Assembly: GCF_900188485.1 (NCBI RefSeq)
Contig: NZ_FZPH01000014.1
Coordinates: 124,001-188,000, forward strand
Length of the DNA stretch: 64,000 bases
Direction: 5' to 3'
From: Asanoa hainanensis
Lineage (GTDB): Bacteria > Actinomycetota > Actinomycetes > Mycobacteriales > Micromonosporaceae
Part shown: positions 5,870-25,568 of the stretch, in pieces
Layout: each line of letters begins with the position of its first letter
Position numbering within the stretch: the first letter of the stretch is position 1
The notes under the pieces: model-generated
What the model was told of the DNA's origin: nothing
Seen by the model: the letters and a program-made list of their open reading frames with translations, nothing else
The model's database searches: none
Program-made: the position numbers and the translations under genes

Positions 5870-6474
5870 ACCCTGCCGCGGCCCAGCCGAAAACCACCCG
5901 GCGCAGCCCCGAATCCTGGGCGGGTCACGCCAAACATGGGGAACGGGACTCGATCAACCCCGACTTGGCGGTCGTGGGCGCGCCGTCGCGTTTGGCCAGC
6001 TACGCGCGCCGTATCCGCGCATTACGTCGATCACGGAAACCCGAGCGATGTCGATGTGTGGAAGGCCGCCAATGTCTCTTGGAACCCGGCGGCCATGCGT
6101 GACACGCACTTTGCATGTTTGGCGGTACCCGCGCTCGTCAGGGGAAGGGTCAGCCTCAGCGTGCAGCCAACTGCGACCGATAGTCGCCGCAATCACGAAA
6201 GTTGGTGAGTCCCGCAGACAGGAATACCGACGGTCTACTGCCCGATCAACCGACTCCACAATGGATCGACGCGCGAGAGACTTTCCCCAGTGAGCTACCA
6301 GCCCAAATCGGCTCACTCGTAGTAGTGGGATCTCCGACCAGCGCGAAGTCAGCGCTCGAAACGGTGAGCGTCCGCTTGGGCGCGCACGCTTCGGTCGCTC
6401 CTGAGAGCGACATACATCGTTGTCATTAGCGATGGCATGTCGTGGTCGGGTATCTGTTGAAGCTCGCGTGTCCT
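5870..6474. other. 605-bp gap without recognisable gene
   Basis: Open frames across this stretch, including a long minus-strand one reaching into the NB-ARC gene, have Arg/Pro/Ser-rich translations without domain character. Base composition is more mixed than in neighbouring genes. No hairpin terminator, repeat or RNA gene was recognised. Confidence 0.5.
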
Positions 6475-6636
6475 TTATCGGCGGACGGGCCGTCGCAGCC
6501 ACCGGCGGACACGGCGCACGAACAAGGGAACGGTGAGGACAAAGACGATCAAGGCGGTGGCGAACTTGAGCCCGATGGTGACCTCGGGCAACCAGCTCCA
6601 GCCGACGAGGACCGCGGAGACGATCGTGGACCACAT
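6475..6636 (-). CDS. small membrane protein (53 aa)
   Basis: This short gene starts at ATG 6636, preceded by a strong GGGAGG ribosome-binding site 6 bp away; a longer frame to 6663 would lack that site. The peptide has two hydrophobic stretches (about residues 3-16 and 23-41) and a strongly basic tail RRVRRWLRRPVRR, a typical inside-positive topology. It is transcribed divergently from the NB-ARC/TPR gene at 6778 across 141 bp. No family was recognised. The divergent pairing could be functional, because small membrane peptides can act as effectors of STAND proteins, but that is speculation. Confidence 0.6.
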   Translation of the reverse strand: MWSTIVSAVLVGWSWLPEVTIGLKFATALIVFVLTVPLFVRRVRRWLRRPVRR

Positions 6637-6777
6637 GGGTGACCTCCCAACAAGGGCGAACAACGACGTGGTCCACGGTGTGGCCGCAGGCGTCCAGCCC
6701 CGTCCAGGTCTGGATTCTGGACGGCTGCCGATCCGGCGCCGACAGTTGGTCCGGCACCGGCATGAAGGCGTGACGTG

Positions 6778-10218: not shown

Positions 10219-10262
10219 TGGCCGACCAGACGCGGTGCTTGGCCCGAACCACCCCGACTTGA
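10174..10262 (+). pseudogene. frameshifted 15th TPR unit
   Basis: After GGCAAG at about 10170-10175 one G appears to be missing compared with other units (GGCAAGGCTGAGGAC elsewhere). Reading in the shifted frame restores EDAAFPVTALQQLVADQTR, a recognisable TPR start, before further decay and a stop at 10260-10262. The NB-ARC protein therefore probably once had at least one more repeat. Confidence 0.65.
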
Positions 10263-10441
10263 ACCGCCCCAGCGCACGCGATGGCGGCGGCTGAATCGCT
10301 CACGACAACGGAGCAGTCACAGCCGGTTCCCGTGGCCGATCATCCGCACCGCGCTAGGGCCTACGGCTCAACACGTTCGTGTGGGCTTTCGGTGCCACCT
10401 TGCCGGCCGCGCGGAGGCTTTCCACGTTCATGTCCAATTAG

Positions 10442-11233
10442 TCAGTCCGCGCGGCGTCCCCACGCCGAGATCAGCGGGGCGAGGGTTAGATCGAGCTCGC
10501 CGGCGTCGATGGCGGCCAGGTGTGTGTCGATCTCGGTGTCGTCGGCCAGGCCTGCGGCGAGCAGTTCGGCGCGGACCATGCGCACCGTCGCGGCCTCCAG
10601 CCGGTCGCAGGCAACGCCGCCCACGGGGAAACAGCCGGTCGCCGCGACATCCGTCAGGCCCGCCGCGCGCAACGCCTGCGGCAGCGTGCGGCCGTAGCGC
10701 AGGTCGGCGCCGCGGCGGGTCATCAGCTCTCGGACGGCGCGCCGCAGGCGGTTGGCCCGTTGCTGGGCCGGGCCGACCTCGTCGAGGCAGGCCAGTGGCT
10801 GCAGTTCGGTGTCGGCGTCCTCGACCAGCAGCCAGCCGCCGGGGCGCAGCGCCGCCACCATGTTGGTCAGCGCCCGGGCTCGGTCCGGTACGTGCACGAG
10901 CACGAGCCGCGCGTGCACGAGGTCGAACGTGCCCGGCTGCGGCGGCGGGTCGGCGACGACGTCGTGCTGGCGCACCTCGTAGCCGCCGGTCGCGTTCAAC
11001 CAGGTCGGGTTGATGTCGGTGGCGAGGACGTAACCGGTCGGTCCGACGGCGGCGGCGAGCGCCTCGGGAATGCTGGGGCCGCCGGCCCCGACGTCCCAGC
11101 ACCGCCAGCCCGGGCTCAGCCCGAGCCAGTCGGCGTGCCCACGGGTGACTCCGTCGAACAGCTCCGCGAGCCAGGTGAACCGCTCACCTGCCTCGACCCG
11201 CGCGTTGTCCAGCAGGTACCGGCGATCGCTCAT
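10442..11233 (-). CDS. class I SAM-dependent methyltransferase
   Basis: The 263-residue product has motif I DVGAGGPSIPEAL (about residues 47-59), the acidic ATDIN at the end of strand 2, QHDVV near motif II and the post-motif LRPGGWLLVEDAD. This is the UbiE/Methyltransf_25-type Rossmann fold; the acceptor is unknown. ATG 11233 starts 2 bp after the stop of the VOC-family gene on the same strand, so the two are very likely co-transcribed. Longer open frames upstream would overlap the VOC gene entirely and are rejected. Confidence 0.85.
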   Translation of the reverse strand: MSDRRYLLDNARVEAGERFTWLAELFDGVTRGHADWLGLSPGWRCWDVGAGGPSIPEALAAAVGPTGYVLATDINPTWLNATGGYEVRQHDVVADPPPQPGTFDLVHARLVLVHVPDRARALTNMVAALRPGGWLLVEDADTELQPLACLDEVGPAQQRANRLRRAVRELMTRRGADLRYGRTLPQALRAAGLTDVAATGCFPVGGVACDRLEAATVRMVRAELLAAGLADDTEIDTHLAAIDAGELDLTLAPLISAWGRRAD

Positions 11234-11235
11234 GG

Positions 11236-11607
11236 TCACATTCTTGCGCAGAACTCGTTGCCTTCCGGGTCCGCGAGGACCTGCCAGCCCTCGTGCTCGG
11301 ACACCACGGTCGCGCCCAGGCGCAGGAGGTGGGCCAGGTGGGCCTCGTCCCGGAGCCGGACGTCGACGTGCATGCGGTTCTTTCCGGTCTTCGGCTCCGG
11401 GACCTCCTGGAGGAAGAAGACCAGCGAACCGTCCGGCGAGTCGATGGCCACCGTCGGATCGGTCTCCGGGGTCAGGCCCAGGGTGGCGAGCCGCGCGATC
11501 TCGGCCTCGTCGTAGGGGCGGATCCGCCAACCGAGCGCGACCTCCCAGAACCGGGCCAGGCTTGCCGCGTGACGGCAGTCCAGCACGATCTCCACGAGGT
11601 GGCTCAC
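11236..11607 (-). CDS. VOC (glyoxalase-like) family protein
   Basis: The 123-residue single-domain protein has paired beta-alpha-beta-beta-beta units of the vicinal oxygen chelate fold: an N-terminal LVEIVLDCRHAASLARFWEVALGW and a C-terminal HVDVRL...VLADPEGNEFC. This matches the Glyoxalase_6 type that is abundant in actinomycetes as stand-alone genes of unknown substrate. Candidate metal-site residues are few, with His in RMHVDV and Glu in GNEFC. It is the upstream gene of a pair with the methyltransferase at 10442-11233. Confidence 0.85.
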   Translation of the reverse strand: MSHLVEIVLDCRHAASLARFWEVALGWRIRPYDEAEIARLATLGLTPETDPTVAIDSPDGSLVFFLQEVPEPKTGKNRMHVDVRLRDEAHLAHLLRLGATVVSEHEGWQVLADPEGNEFCARM

Positions 11608-11681
11608 CCGGCGAACGCTACTGATGCCGCTCGGACGGCGCCACCGTCGACAGGATTGCGGTGAGCGACCAAGCTGGTCGG

Positions 11682-12335
11682 ATGGAGCTCACCGCCGCCG
11701 TGTTCGCCGAGCAGGTCCAAGCCCTTCGACCGCCGGCCGGGCGCGACAGCGTGCGGATGGGTGACGTGTTCGCGCTCGCCAAGCGGTTCGGTGACCTGCC
11801 CGTCGCCGAGCTCGATCGGCTGTTGGACTCCGACGTCCATCTGGTGCGGGTCGGTGCGCTGCGGATCATGGGCAACCAGGCCGTACACCGGAAGGCTTCC
11901 GAGGCCCTGCGTGCGGAGCTGTTCGCGCTCTACCTGCGCCGGACCGACCGGATCGACACGTGGGACCTCGTCGACCTCAGCGCGCACCAGGTGGTCGGCG
12001 GCTATCTGCTCGACACGCCCCGGGACGTCCTCTACGAGCTGGCCCGCTCGCCGCGGTGGTGGGAGCGCCGCATCGCCATCTTCGCCACCCTGACCTTCGT
12101 GCGGGCCGGCGAGGTCGACGACACGTTCGCCCTCGCCGAGATCCTGGTCGACGACCCGCACGAGTTCGTGCGGACCGCGGTCGGTGGGTTGTTGCGTGAG
12201 GCCGGCAAGCACGACCGCGACCGGCTGCTGGCCTTTCTCGACCGGCACGCGCCCACCGCGCCGAGGGTGGTGCTGCGGTTCGCGATCGAGCATCTCGAAC
12301 CGCAGCAGCGCGCCCACTACCTCAGCCGGCGTTAG
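11682..12335 (+). CDS. AlkD-like DNA alkylation repair HEAT-repeat protein
   Basis: The 217-residue all-helical protein is built of HEAT-like repeats with MGDVFALAKRFGDLPVAELDRLLDSD near the N-terminus and WWERRIAIFATLTFVRAGEVDDTFALAEILVDDPHEFV around residues 125-165. This arrangement is typical of the AlkD family, which excises positively charged N3/N7-alkylpurines without base flipping. ATG 11682 is preferred over the in-frame GTG 11661 because the family match begins there. Its 3' end overlaps the convergent SnoaL-like gene by 14 bp. Confidence 0.85.
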   Translation: MELTAAVFAEQVQALRPPAGRDSVRMGDVFALAKRFGDLPVAELDRLLDSDVHLVRVGALRIMGNQAVHRKASEALRAELFALYLRRTDRIDTWDLVDLSAHQVVGGYLLDTPRDVLYELARSPRWWERRIAIFATLTFVRAGEVDDTFALAEILVDDPHEFVRTAVGGLLREAGKHDRDRLLAFLDRHAPTAPRVVLRFAIEHLEPQQRAHYLSRR

Positions 12336-12693
12336 GGACCCGGTCCAGGAAGCCCAGCACCTGGGTCAGCCGGCCGTCGTCGCCCGTGGTCGCCACGTCG
12401 AAACCCACGATCGGTGCCTCGGCGCCGGCCGGGCCCAGCTCCCACGTGAACCTCGCCTGGTTGTGGTGGCCGTCGACCGGGCCGGCCAGGCGGAACGTCA
12501 TCCCGGGGAACTGGCCCTGCACCGCGGCGACCGTCGCGTCGATCGCGGCTGGGCCCTCGGCCACCGCCAGCGGGTCGACGTAACGGCCGTCGGGCGCGAA
12601 CAGGTCGTCGATGTCCTGGCGCCGTTTGGTCGGATCGGTCTCGTTCCAGACCGCGATGTAGCGCTCCGCCAGCTCGTCGTACGTCGTTGCCAT
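12322..12693 (-). CDS. SnoaL-like / NTF2-fold protein
   Basis: The 123-residue protein has the cone-shaped NTF2-like pattern: an N-terminal helix LAERYIAVWNETDPTKRRQ, then DIDDLFAPDGRYVDP and beta strands ending in FLDRV. Family members are isomerases, hydrolases or binding proteins, and no catalytic set is obvious here. The ATG at 12693 has GAGGAGAT 4-10 bp upstream. The gene is divergent from an XRE-type regulator with a 17-bp palindrome between them, so it is the probable regulated target. Confidence 0.8.
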   Translation of the reverse strand: MATTYDELAERYIAVWNETDPTKRRQDIDDLFAPDGRYVDPLAVAEGPAAIDATVAAVQGQFPGMTFRLAGPVDGHHNQARFTWELGPAGAEAPIVGFDVATTGDDGRLTQVLGFLDRVPNAG

Positions 12694-12758
12694 CGAAATC
12701 TCCTCTTCGTCGGTGCCGTTCTGGAGGAGATGGTTGCCGGGGCGGCGGTGCCGTGTCG

Positions 12759-12775
12759 ATTACCTCGGAGGTAAT
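12759..12775. promoter_or_regulatory. perfect palindromic operator candidate
   Basis: ATTACCT-CGG-AGGTAAT is a perfect 7-bp-arm palindrome in the 118-bp spacer between the divergent SnoaL-like gene (start 12693) and the XRE regulator (start 12812). Position and AT-rich arms in a GC-rich context fit an operator of the adjacent regulator. Confidence 0.55.
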
Positions 12776-12811
12776 GGTCCGGGCGCGCGCACGGTCGTTA
12801 ACGTCGGTGGT

Positions 12812-13591
12812 GTGACGACCGTGACCAGGCCGCGGCGGCCCGTCGGCGAGCTGCTGCGGGAGTGGCGCCAGAGCCGCCGGATGAGCCAGCTCGACCTGTC
12901 GATCGAGACGGGCATCTCGACCCGGCACCTGAGCTTCGTGGAGACCGGGCGCTCGCGGCCGAGCCCGGAGCTGATCCTGCGCCTGGCGGAACAGCTCGAC
13001 ATCCCGCTGGCGGACCGCAACACGATCCTGCTCGCCGGCGGCCACGCGCCCGCGTACCCCCGGCATGAGCTCGACGACCCGGAACTGGCTCCGGTACGGG
13101 CGGCGGTGCGCCAGATTCTCGACGGACACAGCCCGTACCCGGCGGCGCTCGTCGACCAGCACTGGCACCTGGTCGAGGCCAATCCGGCGATCGCGCTGTT
13201 CACCGAGGGCGCGGCGCCGCACCTGCTGACGCCGCCGGTCAACGTGTTGCGGCTCATCCTCCACCCCGACGGCATGGCACCGCGCATCCGCAACCTGCCG
13301 GAGTGGCGCGCGCACCTGCTGGTCCGGTTGCGGCAACAGGCGACGACGACCAACGACGACGCCTTGTACGAGCTGCTGGAGGAGTTGCGCGGCTATCCGG
13401 GCGGCACGGCGACCACGGGACCGGCCGCGGGCATCGTGGTTCCCTTGCGCTACCGCGACCTGTCCTTCTTCAGCACCACCACCCTGTTCGGCACGCCGCT
13501 GGACGTCACCGTCGCGGGCCTGGCCGTCGAGGCCTTCTTCCCGGCGGACCCGACCACCGCCGAAGCCCTCCGCGCCCTAAGCCACCCGTAG
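12812..13591 (+). CDS. XRE-family transcriptional regulator with MmyB-like ligand domain
   Basis: The 259-residue product has an N-terminal Cro/C1 helix-turn-helix (about residues 14-68, with SRRMSQLDLSIETGISTRHLSFVETGRSRPS) followed by an MmyB-like PAS-fold sensor (about 90-255; HWHLVEANPAIALF is characteristic). In actinomycetes these regulators bind fatty-acid-like ligands and commonly control a divergent gene. GTG 12812 was chosen because the HTH starts about 12 residues later. Its neighbour is the SnoaL-like gene with the palindrome between. The 3' end overlaps the convergent hydrolase gene by 15 bp. Confidence 0.92.
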   Translation: MTTVTRPRRPVGELLREWRQSRRMSQLDLSIETGISTRHLSFVETGRSRPSPELILRLAEQLDIPLADRNTILLAGGHAPAYPRHELDDPELAPVRAAVRQILDGHSPYPAALVDQHWHLVEANPAIALFTEGAAPHLLTPPVNVLRLILHPDGMAPRIRNLPEWRAHLLVRLRQQATTTNDDALYELLEELRGYPGGTATTGPAAGIVVPLRYRDLSFFSTTTLFGTPLDVTVAGLAVEAFFPADPTTAEALRALSHP

Positions 13592-14413
13592 GGCGGCGAC
13601 CGCGTCGGCGATCGCCTCCGGGTGCTGGCTCTGCAGGAAGCCGTGCGACGCACCCGGCACGACGCGGTGCTCGCCGCGCGGCACGGCCGCGGCCATCGCG
13701 CGGTGCATGGCGTCGATGCCCGCGTGGGCGCGGGTCACCAGGTCCGCGTTTGCGAACTGTTCCCAGACCGGGTTGCGGGCACCGGCGGTCAACACCAGCA
13801 GGGGTACGTCCGGCGGCGCGCCCCCGGCCCGTACCTCCTCGTAGATCTCGGTGTCGAAGTTGCGGGTCTCGTCGATCGCGGTCCGCCAGTGTGTGAGGTG
13901 GTAGTCGACCAGTGCCTCCCGCTCGTCGTCGGGCCAGGCGGCGTAGAGCTGCGCGTACTGGCCGCGGGCGGCGGCCACCTGCGCGTCGGTCAGGTCCGGC
14001 AGGTCGGTGGTCTGCCGCTTGATCTCGGCATCCAGGTCGCGGGCCTCGGCGGGAAGGAAGTCGAAGATGTCCTCGTGGCCCGGGTCGATCAGCAGCAGGC
14101 CGGCGACCTCGGTGGGGAAGAGCTGCGCGTAGCGGCGGGCGTAGAACGCGCCCAGGGAGTGCCCGGCCAGGATCACCGGGCCGCTGATGCCCTTGCCGAT
14201 GAGCGCCGTGTGCAGTTCCTCGGCGACGGCCGTGGCGCTGCGGGGGAGCGCGACCTGCTCGCTCCAGCCGGTGCCCGCCCGGTCGTAGATCACCGCCGGC
14301 GCGCTCAACCGCTGAGCCGCCCGGAAGTCGAGGCCGACGAGCCCGGCGCCGGGCAGGAAGACGACGGTCGGCCCGGAGCCGCGCGGATCGTGGTCGAGCC
14401 AGAGGTTGGTCAT
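13577..14413 (-). CDS. alpha/beta hydrolase
   Basis: The 278-residue hydrolase has the oxyanion region FLPGAG, nucleophile elbow GHSLG (Ser about residue 87) and a C-terminal His in GASHGFLQ (about residue 259); the acid lies in the DLVTRAH or preceding TAGARNP segment. There is no signal peptide, so it is cytoplasmic; the substrate is unknown. The ATG at 14413 is only 6 bp from a good -10 box, suggesting a leaderless mRNA. It is divergent from an ArsR-like regulator that probably controls it. Confidence 0.88.
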   Translation of the reverse strand: MTNLWLDHDPRGSGPTVVFLPGAGLVGLDFRAAQRLSAPAVIYDRAGTGWSEQVALPRSATAVAEELHTALIGKGISGPVILAGHSLGAFYARRYAQLFPTEVAGLLLIDPGHEDIFDFLPAEARDLDAEIKRQTTDLPDLTDAQVAAARGQYAQLYAAWPDDEREALVDYHLTHWRTAIDETRNFDTEIYEEVRAGGAPPDVPLLVLTAGARNPVWEQFANADLVTRAHAGIDAMHRAMAAAVPRGEHRVVPGASHGFLQSQHPEAIADAVAALRVA

Positions 14414-14419
14414 GCGCCT

Positions 14420-14460
14420 AATGTTCGCACGATTGCGAACAGTGTCAAGTGTGAGACAAT
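14420..14460. promoter_or_regulatory. divergent leaderless promoters sharing an operator
   Basis: On the minus strand TTGACA (14448-14443), a 17-bp spacer and AACATT (14425-14420) precede the hydrolase ATG at 14413. On the plus strand TTGCGA (14433-14438), 16 bp and GACAAT (14455-14460) precede the regulator ATG at 14467. Both -10 boxes end 6 bp before the start codons, as in leaderless transcripts. The inverted repeat GTTCGCA-CGAT-TGCGAAC (14423-14440) fills the minus-strand spacer and overlaps the plus-strand -35 box. Confidence 0.6.
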
Positions 14461-14466
14461 TCGCTG

Positions 14467-14997
14467 ATGGACACCGTCGAGCTGCTCGTGCACCCGGTCC
14501 GGTTGCGGATCGTGCACGCCCTGTCCGGCGGGCGGGTGGTGACCACGGCCCAGCTCGTCGATCGGATGCCCGACGTCTCCAAGGCGACGGTCTACCGGCA
14601 CGTCGCGGTGCTGGCCGACGCCGGCATCATCGAGGTCGCGGGCGAGCATCGGGTACGCGGCTTCGTCGAGCGCAGCTACCGGCTCCACCGGGAGCGGGCC
14701 ACGATCCCGCCCGACCGGGCGGCGGCGGCGACCCCCGCCGAGCTGCGACAGGCCTTCGCCGCCGCGATGGCGACCCTGATCGCGGAGTTCGACGGCTACC
14801 TCGACACGGCCGATGCCGACCCGGCCGCCGACCTGGTCGGCTTCCGGCAGCACGCGATCTGGCTGTCCGACGCGGAACGGGCCGACCTGGTCGAAGCGAT
14901 GCGGGCGGCCCTGGCGCCCCGCGTCGGCAACCCACCGGCCGACGGCCGCCGCCCCCACCTGCTCAGCCCGATCCTGTTCCCGATCTCCGGCGACTAG
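14467..14997 (+). CDS. ArsR-like winged-helix transcriptional regulator
   Basis: The 176-residue protein has an N-terminal winged helix (residues 1-75): HPVRLRIVHAL, then TTAQLVDRMPDVSKATVYRHVAVLADAGIIEV with a recognition helix around SKATVYRHV. The C-terminal half is a helical region resembling the ligand or dimerisation part of YdfL/HTH_20-type regulators. It is divergent from the hydrolase gene at 13577-14413, and the 7-bp-arm inverted repeat between them is the likely binding site, so it should repress both genes. Confidence 0.87.
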   Translation: MDTVELLVHPVRLRIVHALSGGRVVTTAQLVDRMPDVSKATVYRHVAVLADAGIIEVAGEHRVRGFVERSYRLHRERATIPPDRAAAATPAELRQAFAAAMATLIAEFDGYLDTADADPAADLVGFRQHAIWLSDAERADLVEAMRAALAPRVGNPPADGRRPHLLSPILFPISGD

Positions 14998-15038
14998 CCC
15001 GCGTTGTGGCCCGCGACGGGGTGCGGCAGGATCCAGAC

Positions 15039-15800
15039 ATGGACCTTGGGCTCGCCGATCGCGTGTACGTGCTGACCGGCGGCACCCGAGGCCTTGGCCT
15101 CGCGACCGCGCGGTGCCTGGTGGCCGACGGAGCCAGGGTGGTCGTCTCCTCCCGGCATCCGGACCATGTCGAGGAGGCGGTCGCGGAGCTCGGCGGCCCC
15201 GACAAGGCGCGCGGCGTGGTGGCCGACCTGGCCCACGACGACTGCGCTGACCACCTGGTCGCGCTGGCCCACGACGCCTTCGGCCGGCTCGACGGCGCGC
15301 TGCTCTCCGTTGGCGGTCCGCCGGCCGGCACCGCCCTGGGCGCCTCCGACGGTCAGTGGCGTGAGTCGTTCGAGACGGTGTTCCTGGGTGCCGTGCGCAC
15401 CGCGCGGGTGGTCGCCGCCGCCCTGCGACCCGGTGGCGCCATCGCGCTGGTGCTGTCCTCGTCGGCCCGCACGCCGATCACCAACCTCGGCATCTCCAAC
15501 GGCTTCCGCCCGGGCCTGGTCGGGGTGGCCAAGGACATGGCCGACGAGCTCGGCCCGCGCGGCGTACGTGTGGTCAGCCTGCTGCCCGGCCGGTTCCTGA
15601 CGGACCGCACCCGGGCCAACTACGGCGACCCCGCCGACCCGACCCGCCCCCGCGAGGGCGCCGGCGATGACGTGCCCCTGCGCCGGATCGGCGACGCCGC
15701 CGAGTTCGGTCGGGCCGCCGCCTTCGTGCTGTCACCGGCAGCGTCCTATGTGACCGGTTCGTCGATCGCCATCGACGGTGGCCTGATCCGCGCCCTGTGA
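15039..15800 (+). CDS. SDR-family protein lacking canonical catalytic Tyr and Lys
   Basis: The 253-residue Rossmann protein has the cofactor motif TGGTRGLG (residues 13-20), VVSSRHPD for cofactor choice, SVGGPP in place of NNAG and a C-terminal SYVTGSSIAIDGGL typical of short-chain dehydrogenases. The active site is unusual. A Ser triplet (LVLSSSA) is present, but aligning GLVGVAK with the usual region puts Ser and Arg where YxxxK should be (SNGFRPGL). This matches the divergent BKR_like_SDR_like group. Its reaction, if any, is unknown. It overlaps the Mug glycosylase start by 4 bp (GTGA). Confidence 0.85.
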   Translation: MDLGLADRVYVLTGGTRGLGLATARCLVADGARVVVSSRHPDHVEEAVAELGGPDKARGVVADLAHDDCADHLVALAHDAFGRLDGALLSVGGPPAGTALGASDGQWRESFETVFLGAVRTARVVAAALRPGGAIALVLSSSARTPITNLGISNGFRPGLVGVAKDMADELGPRGVRVVSLLPGRFLTDRTRANYGDPADPTRPREGAGDDVPLRRIGDAAEFGRAAAFVLSPAASYVTGSSIAIDGGLIRAL

Positions 15801-16379: not shown

Positions 16380-16670
16380 TCAGTCCGCGCGGTGGCGGGC
16401 CAGGCGTTCGCGGACCAGTTGGCCGAACAGGCCTGCCGGTTGGCCGCACGAGGTGCACGTGAAGGTCTCGTCCACGAGGCCTGTGTCGCACGAGCCGCAG
16501 CGGCCGTGGTCGCGTGGGTCGTGGTAGGAGCGCAGTGCCTCGGCCAACGCCTCGGCAGCCGCCGGGCTCAGGCTCACCGCGACCGTGAGTGGCGGGCCGG
16601 AGGCCGGGGCCAGCGCATCGATCCGCGCGGCGAACTCCTCGAGCACGGCCTGCACGTCTGAAGGAACCAC
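16380..16670 (-). CDS. zinc-ribbon protein (96 aa), last gene of the MNIO/ABC operon
   Basis: This is a 96-residue protein with a predicted N-terminal amphipathic helix and a C-terminal zinc ribbon made of two CxxC pairs, CGSC (about residues 58-61) and CTSC (about 71-74). No family was recognised. It starts 3 bp after the stop of the upstream permease gene, making it the last gene of the operon that begins at 21747. A role as chaperone, adaptor or regulator for the Cys-rich system is possible but unsupported. Confidence 0.7.
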   Translation of the reverse strand: MVPSDVQAVLEEFAARIDALAPASGPPLTVAVSLSPAAAEALAEALRSYHDPRDHGRCGSCDTGLVDETFTCTSCGQPAGLFGQLVRERLARHRAD

Positions 16671-16673
16671 AGC

Positions 16674-18077
16674 TCACCTCACCAAAACCTGGACGGCTAC
16701 CAGCACGAAAAGCACGTCCGGGCCGCGGACGACCTGGCGGATCAGGTCGACCGGGACCACGCCCATCGGGGTCTCGGCGACCGAGCCGCCGTAGACCATC
16801 GGGCCTCGGGTCGCCGCGCGGTAGACCGTGGCGGCAACGCCGGCCACGAGCAGCACGGCCAGCCAGAGTGGTCCCGCGCCGACCGCCGGCACTGTCGCGA
16901 GCCACCACAGGGTCGCGGCCAGCGCGGGTACGACCAGGTGGATCAGCTTCAGCGACGCGTCGCTGCCGCCCATCGCGCGTCGCAGGCCGGCCGAGCGGGA
17001 GATGCCGCGCAGGCCGCCGGCGAAACGGTCCGCCGCCAGGTACGCCGCGATCACCTGGACCGCGCCGGCCACCGCTGGCAGCGCGATCGCTACGGCGTAC
17101 ACCGCGAGCACCAGGACCGCCCACCAGGCCAGCGCGGCTCGGGTGCGCGCGACCCGGCGGAGGTCCGCCTGCAGCAGCACCCACCACCGCGGGCCGGGGA
17201 GGAAACGGCGGCTGCGGACCCGGCCGACCGCGCGCCAGCGCTGGTTCTCCACCACCGCCGCCAGCATCGACGGGTCGAGCAGCAGGATCGCCGACGACGC
17301 CGCCGAGGCGAAGCGGGCGCCGGTCGACAGCGAGGCCCGGTCGATCCGGGGGAGGGCCCGGACCGCCAGGACCAACAGCACCACCGCCGGGAGTACGCCG
17401 GCCAGCGCGACCGCGGGCAACAAGGACGTCCCGGGGGTGGCGGGCGACCGGTCCCACAGCCCGTGCGCCAGCACCACGGCCAGGACCAGCAGGCCACCGA
17501 CGCCGGACAGCACCGCTGCGGGCCAACGACGAGCGACACCGGCCTGCACGGCCGCCGCACCAGCCGTGAACGCGGTCCCCCAGGCGAGCCCGGCCAGGCC
17601 CGCCCAGACGTAACCGCCGGACCGCCCGACGGCCGCGGCCGCCGCGCCCAGCAGCGCCGCACCGAACGAACCCGCCAGCACCAGCCCGGCGAATCGCGGC
17701 GCGAGCAGCGCCCGCCGGGACAGCGGCGTGCTGGCCAGCCAGCTCTGCACGGCCGGGCCGATCTGGAGCGGGCCGACCGCGGTCAGGCCCTGCCAGACGA
17801 AGCCGGCCAGGGCGATCCCGGCGCCGACGCCGATCCAGTAGCGGGCGCCCGGGTCGGCCGGCGCCGCGGCCACCTGGCGGTGCAGGAAGTCGCCGGCCGA
17901 GTCGATGGCCGCCCAGCCGTAGATCGCGATCAGGAAACCGATCATGTAGAGGTCGGTGAGCAGGTCGCCGATCGACCGGTCGCGGTGTTTGCGGCGCGCC
18001 CGGCGCAGCCGCGCCTTCAGCTCGCCGGACGGTGGTGGCGCCGCCCCGGGCGGGGGCACCAGGGCAGTCGTCGTCAC
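16674..18077 (-). CDS. multi-pass membrane protein, ABC permease (DUF6297-like)
   Basis: The 467-residue product has a charged N-terminus and about ten to twelve transmembrane segments. It resembles the actinobacterial DUF6297 family, large permease-like proteins encoded next to ABC ATPases. GTG 18077 overlaps the stop of the ATPase gene (GTGA), and this coupling is the main evidence that the two form one transporter. Its neighbours are the MNIO enzyme and the Gly/Cys-tailed membrane proteins, so it may move a modified product or maintain their membrane environment. Confidence 0.8.
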   Translation of the reverse strand: MTTTALVPPPGAAPPPSGELKARLRRARRKHRDRSIGDLLTDLYMIGFLIAIYGWAAIDSAGDFLHRQVAAAPADPGARYWIGVGAGIALAGFVWQGLTAVGPLQIGPAVQSWLASTPLSRRALLAPRFAGLVLAGSFGAALLGAAAAAVGRSGGYVWAGLAGLAWGTAFTAGAAAVQAGVARRWPAAVLSGVGGLLVLAVVLAHGLWDRSPATPGTSLLPAVALAGVLPAVVLLVLAVRALPRIDRASLSTGARFASAASSAILLLDPSMLAAVVENQRWRAVGRVRSRRFLPGPRWWVLLQADLRRVARTRAALAWWAVLVLAVYAVAIALPAVAGAVQVIAAYLAADRFAGGLRGISRSAGLRRAMGGSDASLKLIHLVVPALAATLWWLATVPAVGAGPLWLAVLLVAGVAATVYRAATRGPMVYGGSVAETPMGVVPVDLIRQVVRGPDVLFVLVAVQVLVR

Positions 18078-18691
18078 CCGCCGATGCCGATCCGGACGTC
18101 GGCGACCGCGTCGATCAGCTCCGCGTCGTGCGACGCCATCAGCACCGCCGTGCCGGCCGCCTTCTCGCGCCGGAGGCGGTCGGTCAGCCAGGCCCGGCCG
18201 GCGACGTCGAGGCGCTGCTCGGGCTCGTCCAGTATCAGCACCTTGCGCGGCCGGACCAGGCACGACGCCAGCGCGAGGCGGCGCCGCTGGCCGCTGGACA
18301 GGGTGATCGGCAACTGGTCGCGGGCCCGCTCCAGGCCGAGCTCGACCAGCACTTCGTCGACCGGGTCGCCGCCGTCGCCGTGCGCGTACGCGAGCAGGGC
18401 CAAATGCTCATAAACGGACAGATCAGGGAAGAAGTCGATGTCGTCCAGGGCCGCGGCCATGATCGAACGGGCCCACGCGTCCGTCTCGTAGATCCGCTTC
18501 GCGCCGATCCGGACCACGCCCTCGTCCGGCCGGTCGGCGCCGATCACGCAGCGCAGCAGCGTCGTCTTGCCGGAGCCGTTGGCGCCCAGCACGACACCGA
18601 CCTGACCCGGCGCGACGGCGAAGCTCACCGCGTCGAGCACCACGAGGTTGCCGAACCGACGGGTCAGCCCTTCGACCGTAAGCGCGTCCAC
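18074..18691 (-). CDS. ABC transporter ATP-binding protein
   Basis: The 205-residue ATPase has Walker A GANGSGKTT (about residues 33-41), signature LSSGQRRRLALAS and Walker B VLILDEPEQRLD followed by the switch His in MASHDAE. It lacks a membrane domain and pairs with the permease whose start overlaps its stop. Its own start (GTG 18691) lies 28 bp inside the upstream 146-residue gene, so it belongs to the same operon. The compact size is typical of CcmA/BcrA-type ATPases. Confidence 0.92.
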   Translation of the reverse strand: MDALTVEGLTRRFGNLVVLDAVSFAVAPGQVGVVLGANGSGKTTLLRCVIGADRPDEGVVRIGAKRIYETDAWARSIMAAALDDIDFFPDLSVYEHLALLAYAHGDGGDPVDEVLVELGLERARDQLPITLSSGQRRRLALASCLVRPRKVLILDEPEQRLDVAGRAWLTDRLRREKAAGTAVLMASHDAELIDAVADVRIGIGG

Positions 18692-19104
18692 AGCCGTCCA
18701 CTCTCCCAGAGTGGATCAAATCGCCGGCGCCGGGCCCATCCGGACAGCCGCCCGCGCGCGACCGGGGCGCTCTGGCCGTCGTACCGCCAGGCCGCTTCCC
18801 GAGCGGCGAGCTCCGCCGCGGCCGTGCCCGTCAGCGGGGCCAGCGACCGGGCCAGGTCCCACCCGTCACGCAGCGAGCCGTTGGTCGGCCGCCGCGCCGC
18901 CCAGGCGGCGAACACCGCCTGCCACTGGTCACCCTGGGCCGCCGCGAGCATCGGCCACGCCCGCGCGACGTCGCCGGCCCGCTTGCGCAGCAGGGCGTCC
19001 CGGGCCACCCCGACGAGCCGAGGGTCGAATCCCGGCGGTACGGGCGCGCCCGAGGCCAGTGTGGCGACCAGCGCCGCCTGGCGGGCCGCGAGGTCGCCGG
19101 TCAC
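18664..19104 (-). CDS. MNIO partner protein (146 aa, unknown family)
   Basis: This is an alpha-helical protein of 146 residues without cysteines or membrane segments. GTG 19104 overlaps the stop of the DUF692 gene (GTGA). Characterised DUF692/MNIO enzymes often need a co-transcribed partner (TglI, MbnC, BufC) that presents the substrate peptide. The FDPRLVGVARDALLRKRAGDVARAWPML region recalls the N-terminal helices of such partners, but similarity is too weak for a name, and the assignment rests on position. Confidence 0.65.
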   Translation of the reverse strand: MTGDLAARQAALVATLASGAPVPPGFDPRLVGVARDALLRKRAGDVARAWPMLAAAQGDQWQAVFAAWAARRPTNGSLRDGWDLARSLAPLTGTAAAELAAREAAWRYDGQSAPVARGRLSGWARRRRFDPLWESGRLWTRLRSKG

Positions 19105-19916
19105 GTGACCGCCGGGTAGCCGGACGCGGCCGCGATCGCGTCGAGCTCGGCGCGCAGGGTGTCGGCGGCGGGGTACGCGCCGTCGCGCTCCAGCAGCAGC
19201 GCCGGTGGCCGTCGGCGGGCGCACAGCTCGGCTACCAGCTCCAGCACCGGCTCGGGCACCGCGTGGGTGTGCGTGTCGTGGTAGATCCCACCGGCCTCGG
19301 CGCCACCGGCGACGTGGCAGTAGGCGATCCGGTCCAACGGCAGGGCGTCCAGCAGGGCGAGCGGGTCGGTGCCCCGGTTGCGGGCGTTCGCGTAGACGTT
19401 GGCGATGTCGAGCAGCAGCAGCGCCTCGGTGCGGTCCAGGATCTCGGTCAGGAACTGCGCCTCGGTCAGCTCGTCGTCGGGCCAGTCGAAGATCGCCGCG
19501 ATCGGCTCCAGGGCGATCGGGACGGGCAGTTCGGCCCGCGTACGCGCGACGTTGGCGACCACCGCGTCGACCGCCTCGCGGCTCCGGGGCAGCGGCAGGA
19601 GGTGACCGGCCTCGACCCCGCCCGCGCGTACGAACGCGATGTGCTCACTGACCAGCGGAGCGTCGAGCCGCTCGGCGACCGCGGCCAGGTGGGTGACCCG
19701 GGCCGGGTCGACCGGCTCGGCGCCGCCGAGGGAGAGCTTGACCCCGTGCGGCACCACGGCGACGCCCTTGGCCCGCAGATCCGCCAGCCCCTGCGGCACC
19801 GGCCCGTGGTCGTGCACCGACTCGGCGACGACCTCGACGAACCGCAGGCCGGGCAGCTCGGCGACGAACCCGGCGATCTCGGGCCGCCAGCCGATCCCCA
19901 CGCCGTAGTCGGTCAC
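19101..19916 (-). CDS. DUF692 / MNIO family multinuclear iron oxidase
   Basis: The 271-residue product is a TIM-barrel DUF692 protein. Likely metal ligands are visible in order: His57 (PHGVK), SEH at about 90-92, Glu in IALEPIAA, Asp in LLDIANVYANARN, His in YCHVAGG, the DTHTHAVPE segment and Glu in LLERDG. Characterised members (MbnB, TglH, bufferin enzymes) are multinuclear non-heme iron enzymes that oxidatively rearrange Cys, Asp or other side chains in ribosomal peptides. GTG 19916 overlaps the stop of the preceding Gly/Cys-tailed membrane protein. The Cys in those tails are the obvious candidate substrates. Confidence 0.9.
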   Translation of the reverse strand: MTDYGVGIGWRPEIAGFVAELPGLRFVEVVAESVHDHGPVPQGLADLRAKGVAVVPHGVKLSLGGAEPVDPARVTHLAAVAERLDAPLVSEHIAFVRAGGVEAGHLLPLPRSREAVDAVVANVARTRAELPVPIALEPIAAIFDWPDDELTEAQFLTEILDRTEALLLLDIANVYANARNRGTDPLALLDALPLDRIAYCHVAGGAEAGGIYHDTHTHAVPEPVLELVAELCARRRPPALLLERDGAYPAADTLRAELDAIAAASGYPAVT

Positions 19917-20836
19917 GACCCGCCACCTCCGCCGCCGCAACCCCCGCCACCGCCACCGCCGCAGCCTCCGCCGCCGCCACCACCGCAGCCTGACGAGCCA
20001 CCGCAGCCTGACGAGCCGAAGTCGTGGCTGGCGAAGCCGCTGCCGACCGCGCCGGTCGGGCCGATCAACGTCTCGACCCGCATCTGGTGCACCTCGACGT
20101 CGTCGGCGAACGCCGCGTCGACCTGGTACAGCGAGGACGCGCCGAACAGCGCGATGCCCATGGCCGCGGTCTTGGCGTCGTACGTCGGATAGCTCGGGGT
20201 GTGGTCCGGCGCGAGGTGGCTGTGCCGGGACCGGAGCTCCCGCAACGCCTGCCGGCCGGCCCTGGTCGTGGCGGGCAGCTCGCGCAGGCTCCAGACCAGC
20301 CAGGTGAGCAGGACCGCGCTGATCAGCACCAGCCAGAGCACCGGCCGGTCGTGCCGCAGGCCGATCTGGATGCGTGCGCCGCCGTACGCGAGGACCGGCA
20401 CGACCAGGAGGGCGGCGAGCCGCACCTGCCGCCGGTCCCGCCGGGTCGGAATGAGCCCCGCGCGCTCCAGGCTGCGCCGCACCTTGCCGAGCGAGCGCGC
20501 CACCCACGGGTCGTGGCCCAGGTCACGCACGTGCCGGTGCATGCCGGCGGCGCCGTAGACCGCCTTGTCCAACGAAGGAGCACCCCTCCGCAGCGGACCG
20601 GTCTGGGCCAGCGTGCGGTCCGGTCGGGTGCCGATCGCGCCGGCCCGGCGCAGGCCGCCAACGGTCGCGATCAGCGCGAGCTTGGGGCCGCCGTTGAGGT
20701 AGGCCACCTCGTGCGGGCGGAGCCGATCGTGGTGTGGCTCGTCGACCGGCCCGCGGGCGACCCAGTAGCGCACGAAGGCGGTCAGGCCGACGTCCGCCGC
20801 GCCGAGGGCAAGGTAGAGCGCGACGTAGGCGTTCAT
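19913..20836 (-). CDS. TIGR04222-type membrane protein 2 with Gly/Cys tail
   Basis: The 307-residue protein has an N-terminal membrane segment (about residues 4-25), a conserved region with HEVAYLNGG and a second double-hydrophobic stretch (about 138-180). A Gly/Cys tail ends the protein, with four Cys spaced by runs of two to seven Gly. This matches the TIGR04222 family (membrane domain followed by extremely biased tail), often found beside DUF692. The ATG at 20836 overlaps the stop of the paralogue. The tail would face the side opposite the cytoplasmic loop if two or three segments are used; topology is uncertain. Confidence 0.85.
   Translation of the reverse strand: MNAYVALYLALGAADVGLTAFVRYWVARGPVDEPHHDRLRPHEVAYLNGGPKLALIATVGGLRRAGAIGTRPDRTLAQTGPLRRGAPSLDKAVYGAAGMHRHVRDLGHDPWVARSLGKVRRSLERAGLIPTRRDRRQVRLAALLVVPVLAYGGARIQIGLRHDRPVLWLVLISAVLLTWLVWSLRELPATTRAGRQALRELRSRHSHLAPDHTPSYPTYDAKTAAMGIALFGASSLYQVDAAFADDVEVHQMRVETLIGPTGAVGSGFASHDFGSSGCGGSSGCGGGGGGGCGGGGGGGCGGGGGGS
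19916..20023 (-). repeat. low-complexity Gly/Cys tail coding repeat 2
   Basis: The last 36 codons encode almost only Gly with Cys at tail positions 7, 13, 21 and 29. The two long Gly runs are equal (seven residues each). The DNA is a near-repetitive GGC/GGT tract. Confidence 0.85.
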
Positions 20837-21747
20837 CCGCCGCACCCACCGCCGCCGCCGCAGCCGCCTCCGCCACCCCCGCAGGAGCTGCCGCTCCCGC
20901 ACGAGCTGCTGGAACCGCAGGACGAGCCGACGTCGCTCGACGGTCCGCCGCTGGTCGCCCGGTTGATGTCGGCCTCGGCGGCGAACGCCGGGTCGAGCAG
21001 GAACAGCGTGGACGCGCCGAACAGGGCGACGCCCATCGCCGCCGCGCCCGCGCCGTAGGTCGCGTAGCTCGGTGCCTGCCCGGGCGCCAGGTGGTGGTGG
21101 GTTCCACGAAGACCGGTGAGGGCCCGCTTGCCCGCCTTGGTGCGCTGCGGCGCGCGGGTCAGGCTGACCAGCATCCAGATGCCGGACACGATGACGAGCA
21201 GGATGAGGAAACCGACCGGACGGTCGTTGGCGAGGCCGTCGGAGATCCGCGCGACACCGAGCAGGACCACCGGCAGCAGCACCAGGGCGGCCAGTCGCGA
21301 CGCCCGGCGCTGTCCACGGGTCGGCAGCAGCCCGGCGTTCTCGAGACTGCCCCGGATGTCGTCGAGCGCGCTCGAGACCCACGGGTCGGTGGTCAGTTGC
21401 CGGGTCCGCAGCCGCTTGCCGGCCGCGTTGTAGACCGCGGTGTCCAGCGGTGTCGAGCCGGCCGGCAGCGGGCCGGTCGGCACGAGCGTGCGGTCGGGGT
21501 TGGCCCCGATCGCGCCACCACGACGCAGGCCACCCAGCGCCGTGTACGCGGCCAGCAGCGCCCCGCCGTTGAGGAAGGCGGCCTGCTCCGGGTGCAGGCT
21601 CGGGAAGCCCGGACCGGCCGGCCCTCGCGAGAGCACCGAGCGGATGATCGCCGTGGCGATGATGGCGGCGACCACCAGCGCGACGTAGATCCCGAGGAAG
21701 GTGGGGCCGGCAATGCCCCAGGTGTCGCCGGACGCGGCCAGTGTCAT
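20833..21747 (-). CDS. TIGR04222-type membrane protein 1 with Ser/Gly/Cys tail
   Basis: The 304-residue paralogue of the next gene has a first membrane segment at about residues 14-36, the shared HPEQAAFLNGG and DPWVSSALDDIRGSLENAGLLPTR regions, a double-hydrophobic segment (about 145-185) and a tail with five Cys. Its tail begins Ser-rich (SSCG, SSSSCGSG) and ends Gly-rich. ATG 21747 is chosen because a G-rich ribosome-binding tract precedes it and the membrane segment follows; the frame is open to 21822 but that extension is not helical. It is the first gene of the seven-gene operon. Confidence 0.83.
   Translation of the reverse strand: MTLAASGDTWGIAGPTFLGIYVALVVAAIIATAIIRSVLSRGPAGPGFPSLHPEQAAFLNGGALLAAYTALGGLRRGGAIGANPDRTLVPTGPLPAGSTPLDTAVYNAAGKRLRTRQLTTDPWVSSALDDIRGSLENAGLLPTRGQRRASRLAALVLLPVVLLGVARISDGLANDRPVGFLILLVIVSGIWMLVSLTRAPQRTKAGKRALTGLRGTHHHLAPGQAPSYATYGAGAAAMGVALFGASTLFLLDPAFAAEADINRATSGGPSSDVGSSCGSSSSCGSGSSCGGGGGGCGGGGGCGG
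20836..20928 (-). repeat. low-complexity Ser/Gly/Cys tail coding repeat 1
   Basis: The last 31 codons encode Ser/Gly with Cys at tail positions 4, 10, 16, 23 and 29, a spacing of about six to seven residues. This spacing is shared with the paralogue although the linker residues differ (Ser versus Gly). Confidence 0.85.
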
Positions 21748-21851: not shown

Positions 21852-22430
21852 CTAGGCGGTCGCGCGGCGAACGGCTTCTTCGACCAGATCGAGCACCTTG
21901 CCGAGGTCGCCGGCCGGGCGGCCCATCGCCAGGTGCAGGACCAGGCCGTCGTACGCGAGCTCCAGGAACTGGGCCAGCACGTCGAGGTCGACGTCGTCGC
22001 GGAGCACGCCGGCGGCGCGCTGGCGGGCCAGCCGGTCGCGGGTGGCCTCGGCGATCGCGGCCGAATGCACCGCCCAGCGCTTGGCGAACTCCGGGTCGGT
22101 GCGCAGCCGCCGGGAGACCTCGAGCTGGCTGCCGAGCCAGCCGGTGGTGTCCGGCGAGGCCGCCTGGTCGAGCAGGTCGCGCATCACCTGGACGAGGCCG
22201 TTGCGGGCGACGGTGGCGACCATCGCGGCCGCGTCGTCCTCGGCGACGGCGAGGAACAGGGAGTCCTTGTCACGGAAATGGTGGAAGATCGCACCCCGGG
22301 ACAGCCCGGTTTCCTCTTCGAGCCGGCGGACCGTGGCACCCTCGTAGCCGTAGCGCGCGAAAGCCGCACGCGCCGCGGCCAGGATCTCGTGGCGGCGGGC
22401 GTCGAGCTGGTTCTGGCTCACGCGGGGCAC
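21852..22430 (-). CDS. acnR: TetR-family regulator, AcnR-like
   Basis: The 192-residue protein has an N-terminal TetR helix-turn-helix (about residues 10-56) with YEGATVRRLEEETGLSRGAIF followed by HHFRDKDSLFLAVA. It closely resembles Corynebacterium AcnR, the aconitase repressor, including the NGLVQVMRDLLD stretch and the KVLDLVEEAVRR ending. In corynebacteria acnR sits beside acn; here aconitase is 15 kb away at 37693-40467. A near-identical palindromic element precedes both genes, which supports the name. ATG 22430 begins just before the HTH. Confidence 0.75.
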   Translation of the reverse strand: MPRVSQNQLDARRHEILAAARAAFARYGYEGATVRRLEEETGLSRGAIFHHFRDKDSLFLAVAEDDAAAMVATVARNGLVQVMRDLLDQAASPDTTGWLGSQLEVSRRLRTDPEFAKRWAVHSAAIAEATRDRLARQRAAGVLRDDVDLDVLAQFLELAYDGLVLHLAMGRPAGDLGKVLDLVEEAVRRATA

Positions 22431-22466
22431 GTGTCGATCGTGTCAGGTGGCCCCCGGCGATGCAAT

Positions 22467-22478
22467 CCGTACGTACGG
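22467..22478. promoter_or_regulatory. palindrome upstream of AcnR-like gene
   Basis: CCGTACGTACGG is a perfect 12-bp palindrome 37-48 bp upstream of the regulator start at 22430. Ten of twelve bases recur in the aconitase promoter (40558-40569). Both copies are followed by a CTTGCG-type sequence on the matching strand, which extends the similarity beyond the palindrome. Confidence 0.55.
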
Positions 22479-22492
22479 CTTGCGTGTCACGG

Positions 22493-24200: not shown

Positions 24201-24251
24201 TTGACATCCCGGGTTCGTCGGTTGCATGGTTAGTTACATGAGTAATGAACC
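24201..24251 (+). promoter_or_regulatory. promoter and autoregulatory operator of GntR-ABC operon
   Basis: A consensus TTGACA (24201-24206) is followed after 18 bp by the weak -10 CATGGT (24225-24230). An imperfect inverted repeat, GGTTAGTTAC (24228-24237) and GTAATGAACC (24242-24251), matches at eight of ten arm positions and covers the -10 and presumed start site. This is the layout expected for autorepression by a YtrA-type GntR regulator. Confidence 0.55.
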
Positions 24252-24259
24252 GACGAGCC

Positions 24260-24619
24260 ATGGATGACGACCGGCCGATCTTCGTCCAGATCGCGGAGCT
24301 GATCGAGAACTCGATCATCGACGGGACGCTCGCGGAGGAGACCCAGGTGCCGTCCACCAACGAACTGGCGGCGTTCCACCGGATCAATCCGGCGACCGCC
24401 GCCAAGGGAATCAACCGCCTGGTCGATGACGGAATCCTCTACAAACGCCGGGGGATCGGAATGTTCGTGGCAACGGGGGCCCGCGAAACGCTCCGGGAGC
24501 GTCGCCGGCTCGACTTCGCAACGCAGTACGTGCGCCCGCTCGTCGACGAGGCCCGCAAGTTGGGCATCGGCACCGAGGAGCTCAAGAAACTGATCGAGAC
24601 GTGGGAGGAACAGCGGTGA
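24260..24619 (+). CDS. GntR-family (YtrA subfamily) regulator
   Basis: The 119-residue protein has an N-terminal winged helix (about residues 4-72): PIFVQIAELIENSIIDG, VPSTNELAAFHRINPATAAKGINRLVDDGILYKRRGIGMFV. A short two-helix C-terminus follows, with no large effector domain, which is the YtrA subfamily. These repress adjacent ABC-transporter operons, as here. ATG 24260 is chosen as the family start; in-frame ATG 24245 lies within the operator repeat and is an alternative. The ABC ATPase gene starts 70 bp downstream. Confidence 0.9.
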   Translation: MDDDRPIFVQIAELIENSIIDGTLAEETQVPSTNELAAFHRINPATAAKGINRLVDDGILYKRRGIGMFVATGARETLRERRRLDFATQYVRPLVDEARKLGIGTEELKKLIETWEEQR

Positions 24620-24689
24620 GCGAGCGAAGCGAGCGCAGGCAACTCAGCCGTCTGCGGTCTTGTCCCGCCGACCGAAGGGAGGTGGCGGC

Positions 24690-25568
24690 ATGACCGTCGT
24701 GGCGGCTAGCGGCCTGACGAAGCGGTACCGGGACGTGACCGCACTCGACGACGTCAGCTTCACGCTCGAGGAGAACGCGATCTACGGCCTGCTCGGCCGC
24801 AACGGCGCGGGCAAGACCACGCTGATGCAGCTGATCACCGGCCAGACGGGCGCCACGTCCGGCTCGTTGGAGCTCTTCGGGGAGCACCCGTACGAGAACG
24901 AACGTGCGCTCATGAAGGTCGTGTTCATCAAGGAGAGCCAGAAGTACCCGACGGCGTACAAGGTGAAGCACGTGCTCAGCCTGGCCCGTCACCTGTTCCC
25001 CAACTGGGACGAGGACTTCGCGCAGTCCCTTGTGGACGACTTCAACCTGCCCCGCAAGCGCGACGTGCGCAAGCTCTCCCGAGGCATGACCTCCGCGCTG
25101 GGCGTCACCATCGGCCTGGCGGCGCGGGCACCGCTGACCTTCTTCGACGAGCCGTACCTGGGCCTCGATGCCGTGGCCCGCCAGCTCTTCTACGACCGGC
25201 TGCTGGCGGACTACGCCGAGCACCCGCGCACCGTCGTGCTCTCCACGCACCTGATCGACGAGGTCGCCGACCTCATCGAGCAGGTGCTGCTGCTCGACCG
25301 GGGCAAGTTGGTGCTCGACGCCGACACCGACGAGCTGCGCGGCGAGGTGATGGACGCGACCGGTCCGGCCGAGGCGATCGACGAGTTCGCCACGGGCCGC
25401 CAGGTCCTGCACCGCGAGCAGCTCGGCGGGGTGGTCCGGGTGACCCTGCGGGGCTCGTTCGACAACGCGGAGCGGATGCGGGCCAAGAAGCTGAGCATCG
25501 ACCTGCAGCCGGTGTCGCTCCAGCAGGCGGTCGTGCGCCTGACCATGGAAAGGAAGACCGACCGATGA
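24690..25568 (+). CDS. ABC transporter ATP-binding protein
   Basis: The 292-residue ATPase has Walker A GRNGAGKTT (about residues 35-43), a degenerate signature LSRGMTSALG in place of LSGGQ, Walker B APLTFFDEPYLGLD and switch His in LSTHLIDE. It has a C-terminal extension (about 215-292) of unknown role, as in BcrA/YtrB-like proteins. A strong GGGAGG lies before ATG 24690. Its stop overlaps the permease start (ATGA). Control by the upstream YtrA-type repressor suggests a cell-envelope stress or antibiotic-response exporter. Confidence 0.92.
   Translation: MTVVAASGLTKRYRDVTALDDVSFTLEENAIYGLLGRNGAGKTTLMQLITGQTGATSGSLELFGEHPYENERALMKVVFIKESQKYPTAYKVKHVLSLARHLFPNWDEDFAQSLVDDFNLPRKRDVRKLSRGMTSALGVTIGLAARAPLTFFDEPYLGLDAVARQLFYDRLLADYAEHPRTVVLSTHLIDEVADLIEQVLLLDRGKLVLDADTDELRGEVMDATGPAEAIDEFATGRQVLHREQLGGVVRVTLRGSFDNAERMRAKKLSIDLQPVSLQQAVVRLTMERKTDR

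Follow-up and report, generated by a model that had tools for sequence, protein, structure and literature searches.

A conserved TIGR04222-MNIO gene unit behind acnR in Micromonosporaceae, a putative system for cysteine-tail modification of a membrane protein

In a 64-kb stretch of the genome of the soil actinomycete Asanoa hainanensis (Micromonosporaceae; hereafter the window, 64,000 nucleotides in full), we confirmed seven open reading frames (ORFs) between positions 16380 and 21747, all on the minus strand. They encode two membrane proteins of the TIGR04222 family with cysteine-bearing tails (TIGR04222-1 and TIGR04222-2), an MNIO enzyme (DUF692), a protein of 146 residues, an ABC ATPase, a DUF6297 permease and a zinc-ribbon-like protein. 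As judged from comparison with other genomes, the TIGR04222 protein or proteins, the MNIO and the 146-residue protein are a conserved functional unit. The account that we favor, and to which we give somewhat better than even chances, is that the MNIO and its 146-residue partner modify the tail cysteines of the TIGR04222 membrane protein, with the unit lying behind the regulator gene acnR and the ABC pair being an addition of the genus Asanoa. The initial annotation had treated all seven genes as a single unit; this is supported for the TIGR04222, MNIO and 146-residue genes and not for the ABC and zinc-ribbon genes.

The core unit was followed through the window genome and 150 relatives (151 genomes), and all counts given here ignore relatedness. 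TIGR04222 matches occurred in 89 of these genomes (in 77 over the curated cut-off of 43 bits), MNIO matches in 74 and DUF6297 matches in 55. For the linkage count we used 127 TIGR04222 matches of at least 43 bits, 84 MNIO matches and 55 DUF6297 matches, leaving out two MNIO second fragments, the extra DUF6297 fragments, one row below cut-off and one weak second match. A TIGR04222 gene lay within 3 kb of the MNIO in 70 of the 84 cases. Forty-one linked loci, the window and 40 others, were then compared; because they had been chosen from the linked ones, the presence of TIGR04222 in all 41 is no independent count. The 146-residue protein was found by tblastn in 40 of the 41, the exception (L098) giving a weak phmmer match, and its gene stood directly downstream of the MNIO gene on the same strand in 37 of the 40 loci in which an MNIO gene had been called. 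In a phylum-wide sample of 398 genomes, which partly overlaps the 151 and holds many close relatives, 29 of the 30 genomes with TIGR04222 over the cut-off also had the MNIO, compared with 36 of 398 overall, and all 18 MNIO loci chosen from these 36 genomes contained the 146-residue protein. Three MNIO-less genomes (L217-L219, chosen by the palindrome described below) have acnR and an SDR gene side by side with none of the three core genes between them, which suggests that the core genes were gained or lost as a block.

The tails are the presumed target of the enzyme. Near-regular spacing of the cysteines, five in one tail and four in the other, had been remarked on in the initial annotation and is borne out, with distances of 6, 6, 7 and 6 in TIGR04222-1 and of 6, 8 and 8 in TIGR04222-2. 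At least two cysteines occurred within the last 45 residues of 61 of 66 MNIO-linked TIGR04222 proteins but of only 14 of 32 unlinked ones (Fisher p 3e-7, kinship ignored), and within the unlinked group none of the three proteins from genomes without an MNIO match had such a tail. Of the 70 linked genomes, 51 supplied the linked proteins, and the 32 others came from 36 unlinked regions, five of which yielded no protein; one unlinked match (G025:C9) was left out, proteins scoring below 35 were dropped, and L108, at a contig start, is possibly linked across the contig break. Gly (56%), Ser (20%) and Cys (11%) make up most of the tails, and Arg, Ala and Val are rare although they are one base away from Gly codons. 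Gly follows 200 of the 236 tail cysteines of linked proteins, and in 48 of the 51 loci where TIGR04222 is linked, one or more tails end in CGG. Since such ends are common and the seven-gene order repeats in all six Asanoa genomes (the window and five others, two of them, L068 and L071, with disrupted genes), we do not regard the arrangement as chance. Release of the tail by signal peptidase at a DPxFA motif was also considered and rejected: the cleavage site is not conserved, as the -3 residue is Ala or Gly in 52 of 74 motif-bearing proteins (98 examined) and elsewhere Glu, Asp, Arg, Lys, Leu or others.

The enzyme retains the residues presumed to bind iron and to serve as catalytic base. Ten residues, H58, H93, E138, D171, N174, H202, D215, H217, E244 and D246, are invariant in all 40 aligned orthologues and kept in 19 of 22 further sequences, the other three being gapped there; among them are the presumed iron ligands. 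By motif, D246 appears to match the catalytic base D249 of FonB, and G247 occupies the place of its selectivity residue Phe250 (PMC13097082). The protein aligns to 3bww, TglH and MbnB and stays below the NCBIfam equivalog cut-offs for BufB (186 of 310 bits) and HvfB (158 of 360 bits). The window's 146-residue protein had no family match in TIGR and Pfam profile searches, and in 4 of 36 members of its family DUF2063 appeared below threshold (best E 0.0025). Its model is helical (pLDDT 86.4), and together with its position next to the MNIO gene these features make it a probable short MNIO partner resembling PME-type 2.

On this basis, the cytosolic MNIO and the 146-residue protein would probably oxidize cysteines in the Gly/Ser/Cys tail, most likely yielding copper-binding groups such as the 5-thiooxazole of bufferins and captophorins, and the result would be a membrane-tethered, metal-binding tail. 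The side of the membrane on which this tail lies is less certain. In the AlphaFold2 (AF2) model of TIGR04222-1, helices 14-40, 157-173 and 179-197 were taken as transmembrane (TM), while the segment 229-262 is broken into short helices (233-243, 246-251 and 253-258). Lys and Arg average 15.1 on the domain side and 6.2 behind the third TM helix, against 0.14 at the N-terminus and 0.88 in the loop between the second and third helices. These charges place the domain, and hence the tail, in the cytosol unless the stretch preceding the tail spans the membrane. A Foldseek search of the PDB with the TIGR04222 model found no similar fold, and a GOLPH3-like fold was considered and rejected because no match was better than E 1.6.

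Antoine et al. (2025; PMC12452194) inferred from AF2 models of their own that the tail lies outside the membrane ("periplasmic"), which speaks against the cytosolic placement. In such a version, with four TM helices, the stretch that precedes the tail would span the membrane and the modified tail would lie outside, as in bufferins; we regard this as a serious alternative, though one with clearly less than an even chance. The segment is indeed apolar, without Lys or Arg in 34 of 42 sequences, and residues 229-258 are mildly hydrophobic (median KD19 1.46, and at least 1.6 in 22 of 62 linked proteins); the charge rule, moreover, does not decide the side of the tail, since the tail has few charges. 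Against a crossing stand the splitting of the segment into three short helices in our model, its median hydrophobicity, which in every one of the three groups compared was lower than that of any of the three TM helices, and the charged residues that it bears in tail-less relatives. As no export signal was recognized in the MNIO, an outside tail would also need to be modified before crossing. The three-TM model, contrary to the published placement, would leave the Cys tail on the cytosolic side. If it did so permanently, the protein could be a membrane-tethered ribosomally synthesized and post-translationally modified peptide (RiPP), whose MNIO-modified tail, tuned by AcnR, would buffer or sense copper or iron and, unlike bufferins, would have no export step; we offer this extension tentatively and think it rather doubtful.

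Several observations count against tail modification by the MNIO-partner pair. Fourteen of the 84 MNIO matches have no TIGR04222 gene within 3 kb, although some of these lie at contig starts; of four such matches, one (L146) has the 146-residue protein and three divergent ones (L143-L145) do not. Five of the 66 linked proteins lack a Cys tail, and the Cys tails on unlinked proteins imply either that adjacency to an MNIO is not required or that modification occurs in trans. As for the partner, MbnC (7dz9_C) was the top match of its model among 350,542 PDB chains without reaching significance (Foldseek probability 0.51, E 0.98), and an alignment-profile search of PDB sequences with the 146-residue family found no MNIO partner. 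The tail may instead be an unmodified Cys/Gly low-complexity domain that binds metal or takes part in redox chemistry, the MNIO acting on some other, unannotated substrate. The Cys tails of unlinked proteins would fit this, and we know of no product of the system; in the portions of the literature available to us, no demonstration of modification of, or metal binding by, a TIGR04222 tail was found. Nevertheless, tail cysteines follow MNIO linkage. We also screened the called genes (40 codons or longer) up to four genes away from the MNIO in 40 loci for other Cys-rich families; apart from the zinc-ribbon gene of Asanoa, none was present in three or more loci. On both counts we judge an unmodified tail unlikely. 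As a side observation, L143-L145 represent a second, divergent MNIO (35-41% identical) in three Asanoa genomes, with no TIGR04222 gene within 3 kb.

The favored account, in which the tail is modified, also has a recurrent genomic setting. A regulator gene on the same strand, which the initial annotation did not include in the set, ends 104 nt upstream of TIGR04222-1, and by its match to AcnR of Corynebacterium glutamicum (4ac6; Table 1) its product is an AcnR orthologue; in one locus (L221) acnA lies in the acnR neighborhood. Of 30 Micromonosporaceae MNIO loci (the window and L067-L095), 28 have an acnR orthologue upstream in the same orientation, L090 and L092 being the exceptions; in L089 the two are separated by about 1 kb that includes another called ORF. 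The core, CCGTACGTACGG, of a palindrome, CAAGCCGTACGTACGGATTG, is common to 17 of 27 regions upstream of acnR; the palindrome resembles, without being identical to, the AcnR consensus CAGNACnnncGTACTG (PMC2723105). The window has two palindrome sites (four strand matches) at up to three mismatches, compared with 0.01 matches expected, and the site at 22463-22482 is a possible AcnR operator. In this family the unit, being behind acnR on the same strand, would perhaps share one AcnR-controlled transcript, in which case its expression may follow the citrate or iron state of the cell.

A special tie between AcnR and the MNIO is weakened by other counts. Outside the Micromonosporaceae, none of the 11 loci has acnR upstream, and linkage in one family only may reflect inherited position rather than function. 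The palindrome occurs at up to one mismatch in 33 of 61 genomes (reversed control 0), and its sites are not confined to acnR: some lie close to other genes, and genomes that lack an MNIO have it too. Between acnR and TIGR04222, no palindrome was common to two of the 27 loci. We therefore rejected AcnR as a dedicated MNIO regulator: acnR (in L217-L219) and its site occur without an MNIO, so AcnR would be a housekeeping regulator, and either function or descent would account for the position of the unit behind it. A one-mismatch AcnR-like palindrome was also seen before a methyltransferase-like gene in two Asanoa and two other genomes (L213 at 3485, L214 at 3525, L215 at 3539 and L216 at 3521), with a divergent aldo/keto reductase-like gene called there in three of the four; this may be a second AcnR target.

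As the initial annotation had it, the seven genes are tightly packed. The overlaps measure 4 nt between the two TIGR04222 genes, 7 nt between TIGR04222-2 and the MNIO gene (4 nt if the next GTG is the MNIO start), 4 nt between the MNIO and 146-residue genes, 28 nt between the latter and the ATPase gene and 4 nt between the ATPase and permease genes, and a 3-nt gap precedes the zinc-ribbon gene. Both TIGR04222 proteins score over the cut-off and match model positions 1-228 of 229; the curated cut-off for PF05114 is 25 bits. Coordinates are collected in Table 1.

Table 1 Features of the core unit and its surroundings in the Asanoa hainanensis window.
Feature	Position	Strand	Evidence
TIGR04222-1 membrane protein, 304 aa, putative substrate; 3 predicted TM helices	20833..21747	-	TIGR04222 157.2 bits; AF2 pLDDT 84.6
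Gly/Ser/Cys tail of TIGR04222-1, residues 263-304, 5 Cys, CGG end	20836..20961	-	pLDDT <50 over most
TIGR04222-2 membrane protein, 307 aa, second putative substrate	19913..20836	-	TIGR04222 133.6 bits
Gly/Ser/Cys tail of TIGR04222-2, 4 Cys	19916..20023	-	sequence
MNIO (DUF692, PF05114) enzyme, 272 aa	19101..19919	-	271.6 bits; aligned to 3bww, TglH
146-aa probable MNIO partner, PME-type 2-like	18664..19104	-	linkage; sub-threshold DUF2063 in relatives
ABC ATPase, genus-specific addition, non-core	18074..18691	-	ABC_tran 92 bits (cut-off 25)
DUF6297 permease (PF19814), genus-specific addition, non-core	16674..18077	-	212 bits (cut-off 29.8)
Zinc-ribbon-like protein, probably outside MNIO unit	16380..16670	-	CxxC...CxxC read from sequence
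AcnR-like TetR regulator, upstream of unit	21852..22430	-	phmmer to AcnR 4ac6, E 2.7e-52
Palindrome CAAGCCGTACGTACGGATTG, possible AcnR operator	22463..22482	.	32 nt before acnR-like gene

The initial annotation had proposed a dedicated ABC transporter, and the comparison across genomes did not sustain this; for the ABC genes we observed the very lack of linkage elsewhere that it had named as a refutation. DUF6297 and a linked MNIO-TIGR04222 pair occurred together in 35 genomes. In the six of these that are Asanoa, the permease gene was always within 20 kb of the MNIO; in the 29 others it never was, and four of them have it on the same contig at a distance of 72-88 kb. Close ATPase orthologues (E 1e-60) occurred in 15 of 101 genomes and adjoin the MNIO only in the six Asanoa; none of the nine others does, and four of these genomes (G025, G027, G042 and G111) have no MNIO match. 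The ATPases of such stand-alone pairs are 59-79% identical to that of the window. In L068 (genome G002) the ATPase gene is interrupted by an insert of about 11 kb, whereas the reading frames of TIGR04222, MNIO and partner are intact. No peptidase domain, such as C39, was among the Pfam matches of the ATPase or the permease. With no peptidase match and linkage confined to Asanoa, the pair does not have the marks of a dedicated peptidase-containing RiPP exporter. That the whole set is one dedicated system, with the ABC pair exporting or extracting the modified tail or handling its metal, would agree with the 28-nt overlap and the constant order in Asanoa, but is very unlikely given the unlinked pairs elsewhere, the split ATPase and the missing peptidase. 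By sequence comparison, the ABC pair was probably acquired next to the core unit in Asanoa, where it would be co-transcribed without being needed. The term DUF6297 was not found in the literature searched.

By reading, the L068 insert (4359-15428) carries an ATPase-like gene besides a large gene resembling serine recombinases; the 300-base stretches at its two edges share no exact repeat longer than 10 bases. Unrelated to the seven genes, a second ABC ATPase ORF lies in the window behind a short ORF read as GntR-like (24245-25568); it was called as well near the locus in four further Asanoa, the stretch of the fifth (L068) stopping short of it.

The zinc-ribbon protein, likewise counted into the unit by the initial annotation, probably stands outside it. 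It gives a weak DUF6295 match (20.5 bits, below the cut-off of 25), and matches to it occur in 47 of 101 genomes (E 0.01). The 29 non-Asanoa matches at about E 1e-6 or better include 22 from MNIO genomes, of which one (G038) is within 20 kb of the MNIO, and none of the 29 is within 20 kb of DUF6297. Its gene and mug converge in the window, L221 and L223, but in L222 and L224 mug is not nearby. A homologue behind the stand-alone ABC permeases (L047-L060) was looked for and rejected, the single CxxC...CxxC frame there (L058) showing no resemblance. In L071 (10326-10633; genome G005) the gene runs over two frames, by frameshift or sequencing error.

This kind of system is already known in outline, and the description "undescribed" in the initial annotation has to be withdrawn. 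Antoine et al. named TIGR04222 proteins as putative MNIO substrates and paired their Cys/Ser/Gly tails with an MNIO and a short partner of PME-type 2, showing such partners from Micromonospora and Saccharothrix (PMC12452194). The three families are those of our unit, and the difference lies in the tail, placed outside there and in the cytosol in our model. The main text of that paper, supplements aside, nowhere uses the terms ABC transporter, permease, TetR or regulator, and AcnR was not mentioned in any of the related papers listed in a literature search. What our analysis adds is the AcnR setting, the absence of the block at the acnR site, the tail and MNIO counts, the cytosolic-tail model and the restriction of ABC linkage to one genus.

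With the bufferins and captophorins, the unit shares the MNIO family, the presumed ligands and the catalytic Asp (PMC13097082, PMC12452194), and the Cys-Gly of its tails is the dyad preferred by FonB (PMC13097082). Unlike theirs, the putative precursor is a membrane protein in which no Sec signal peptide was recognized, a DUF2063-RRE (PME-type 1) partner is lacking, and Gly rather than Phe follows the catalytic Asp in an MNIO that falls under the BufB and HvfB cut-offs. The MbnBC (methanobactin) and TglHI systems resemble it in the alignment of the MNIO to MbnB and TglH and in MbnC being the best match of the partner model, and differ in that the putative substrate here is a membrane protein of about 300 residues and that the PDB search gave no sequence match of the 146-residue family to MbnC or TglI.

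Peptides are established substrates of MNIOs. That these enzymes also act on a membrane protein has been suggested (PMC12452194), but no demonstration of it was found in the literature accessible to us. The locus, with the transporter separated from the core, provides a compact three-gene test case for such chemistry. The location of the tail is a checkable point of disagreement with the published placement (PMC12452194), and control by aconitase and iron may be the physiological setting in which the unit works.

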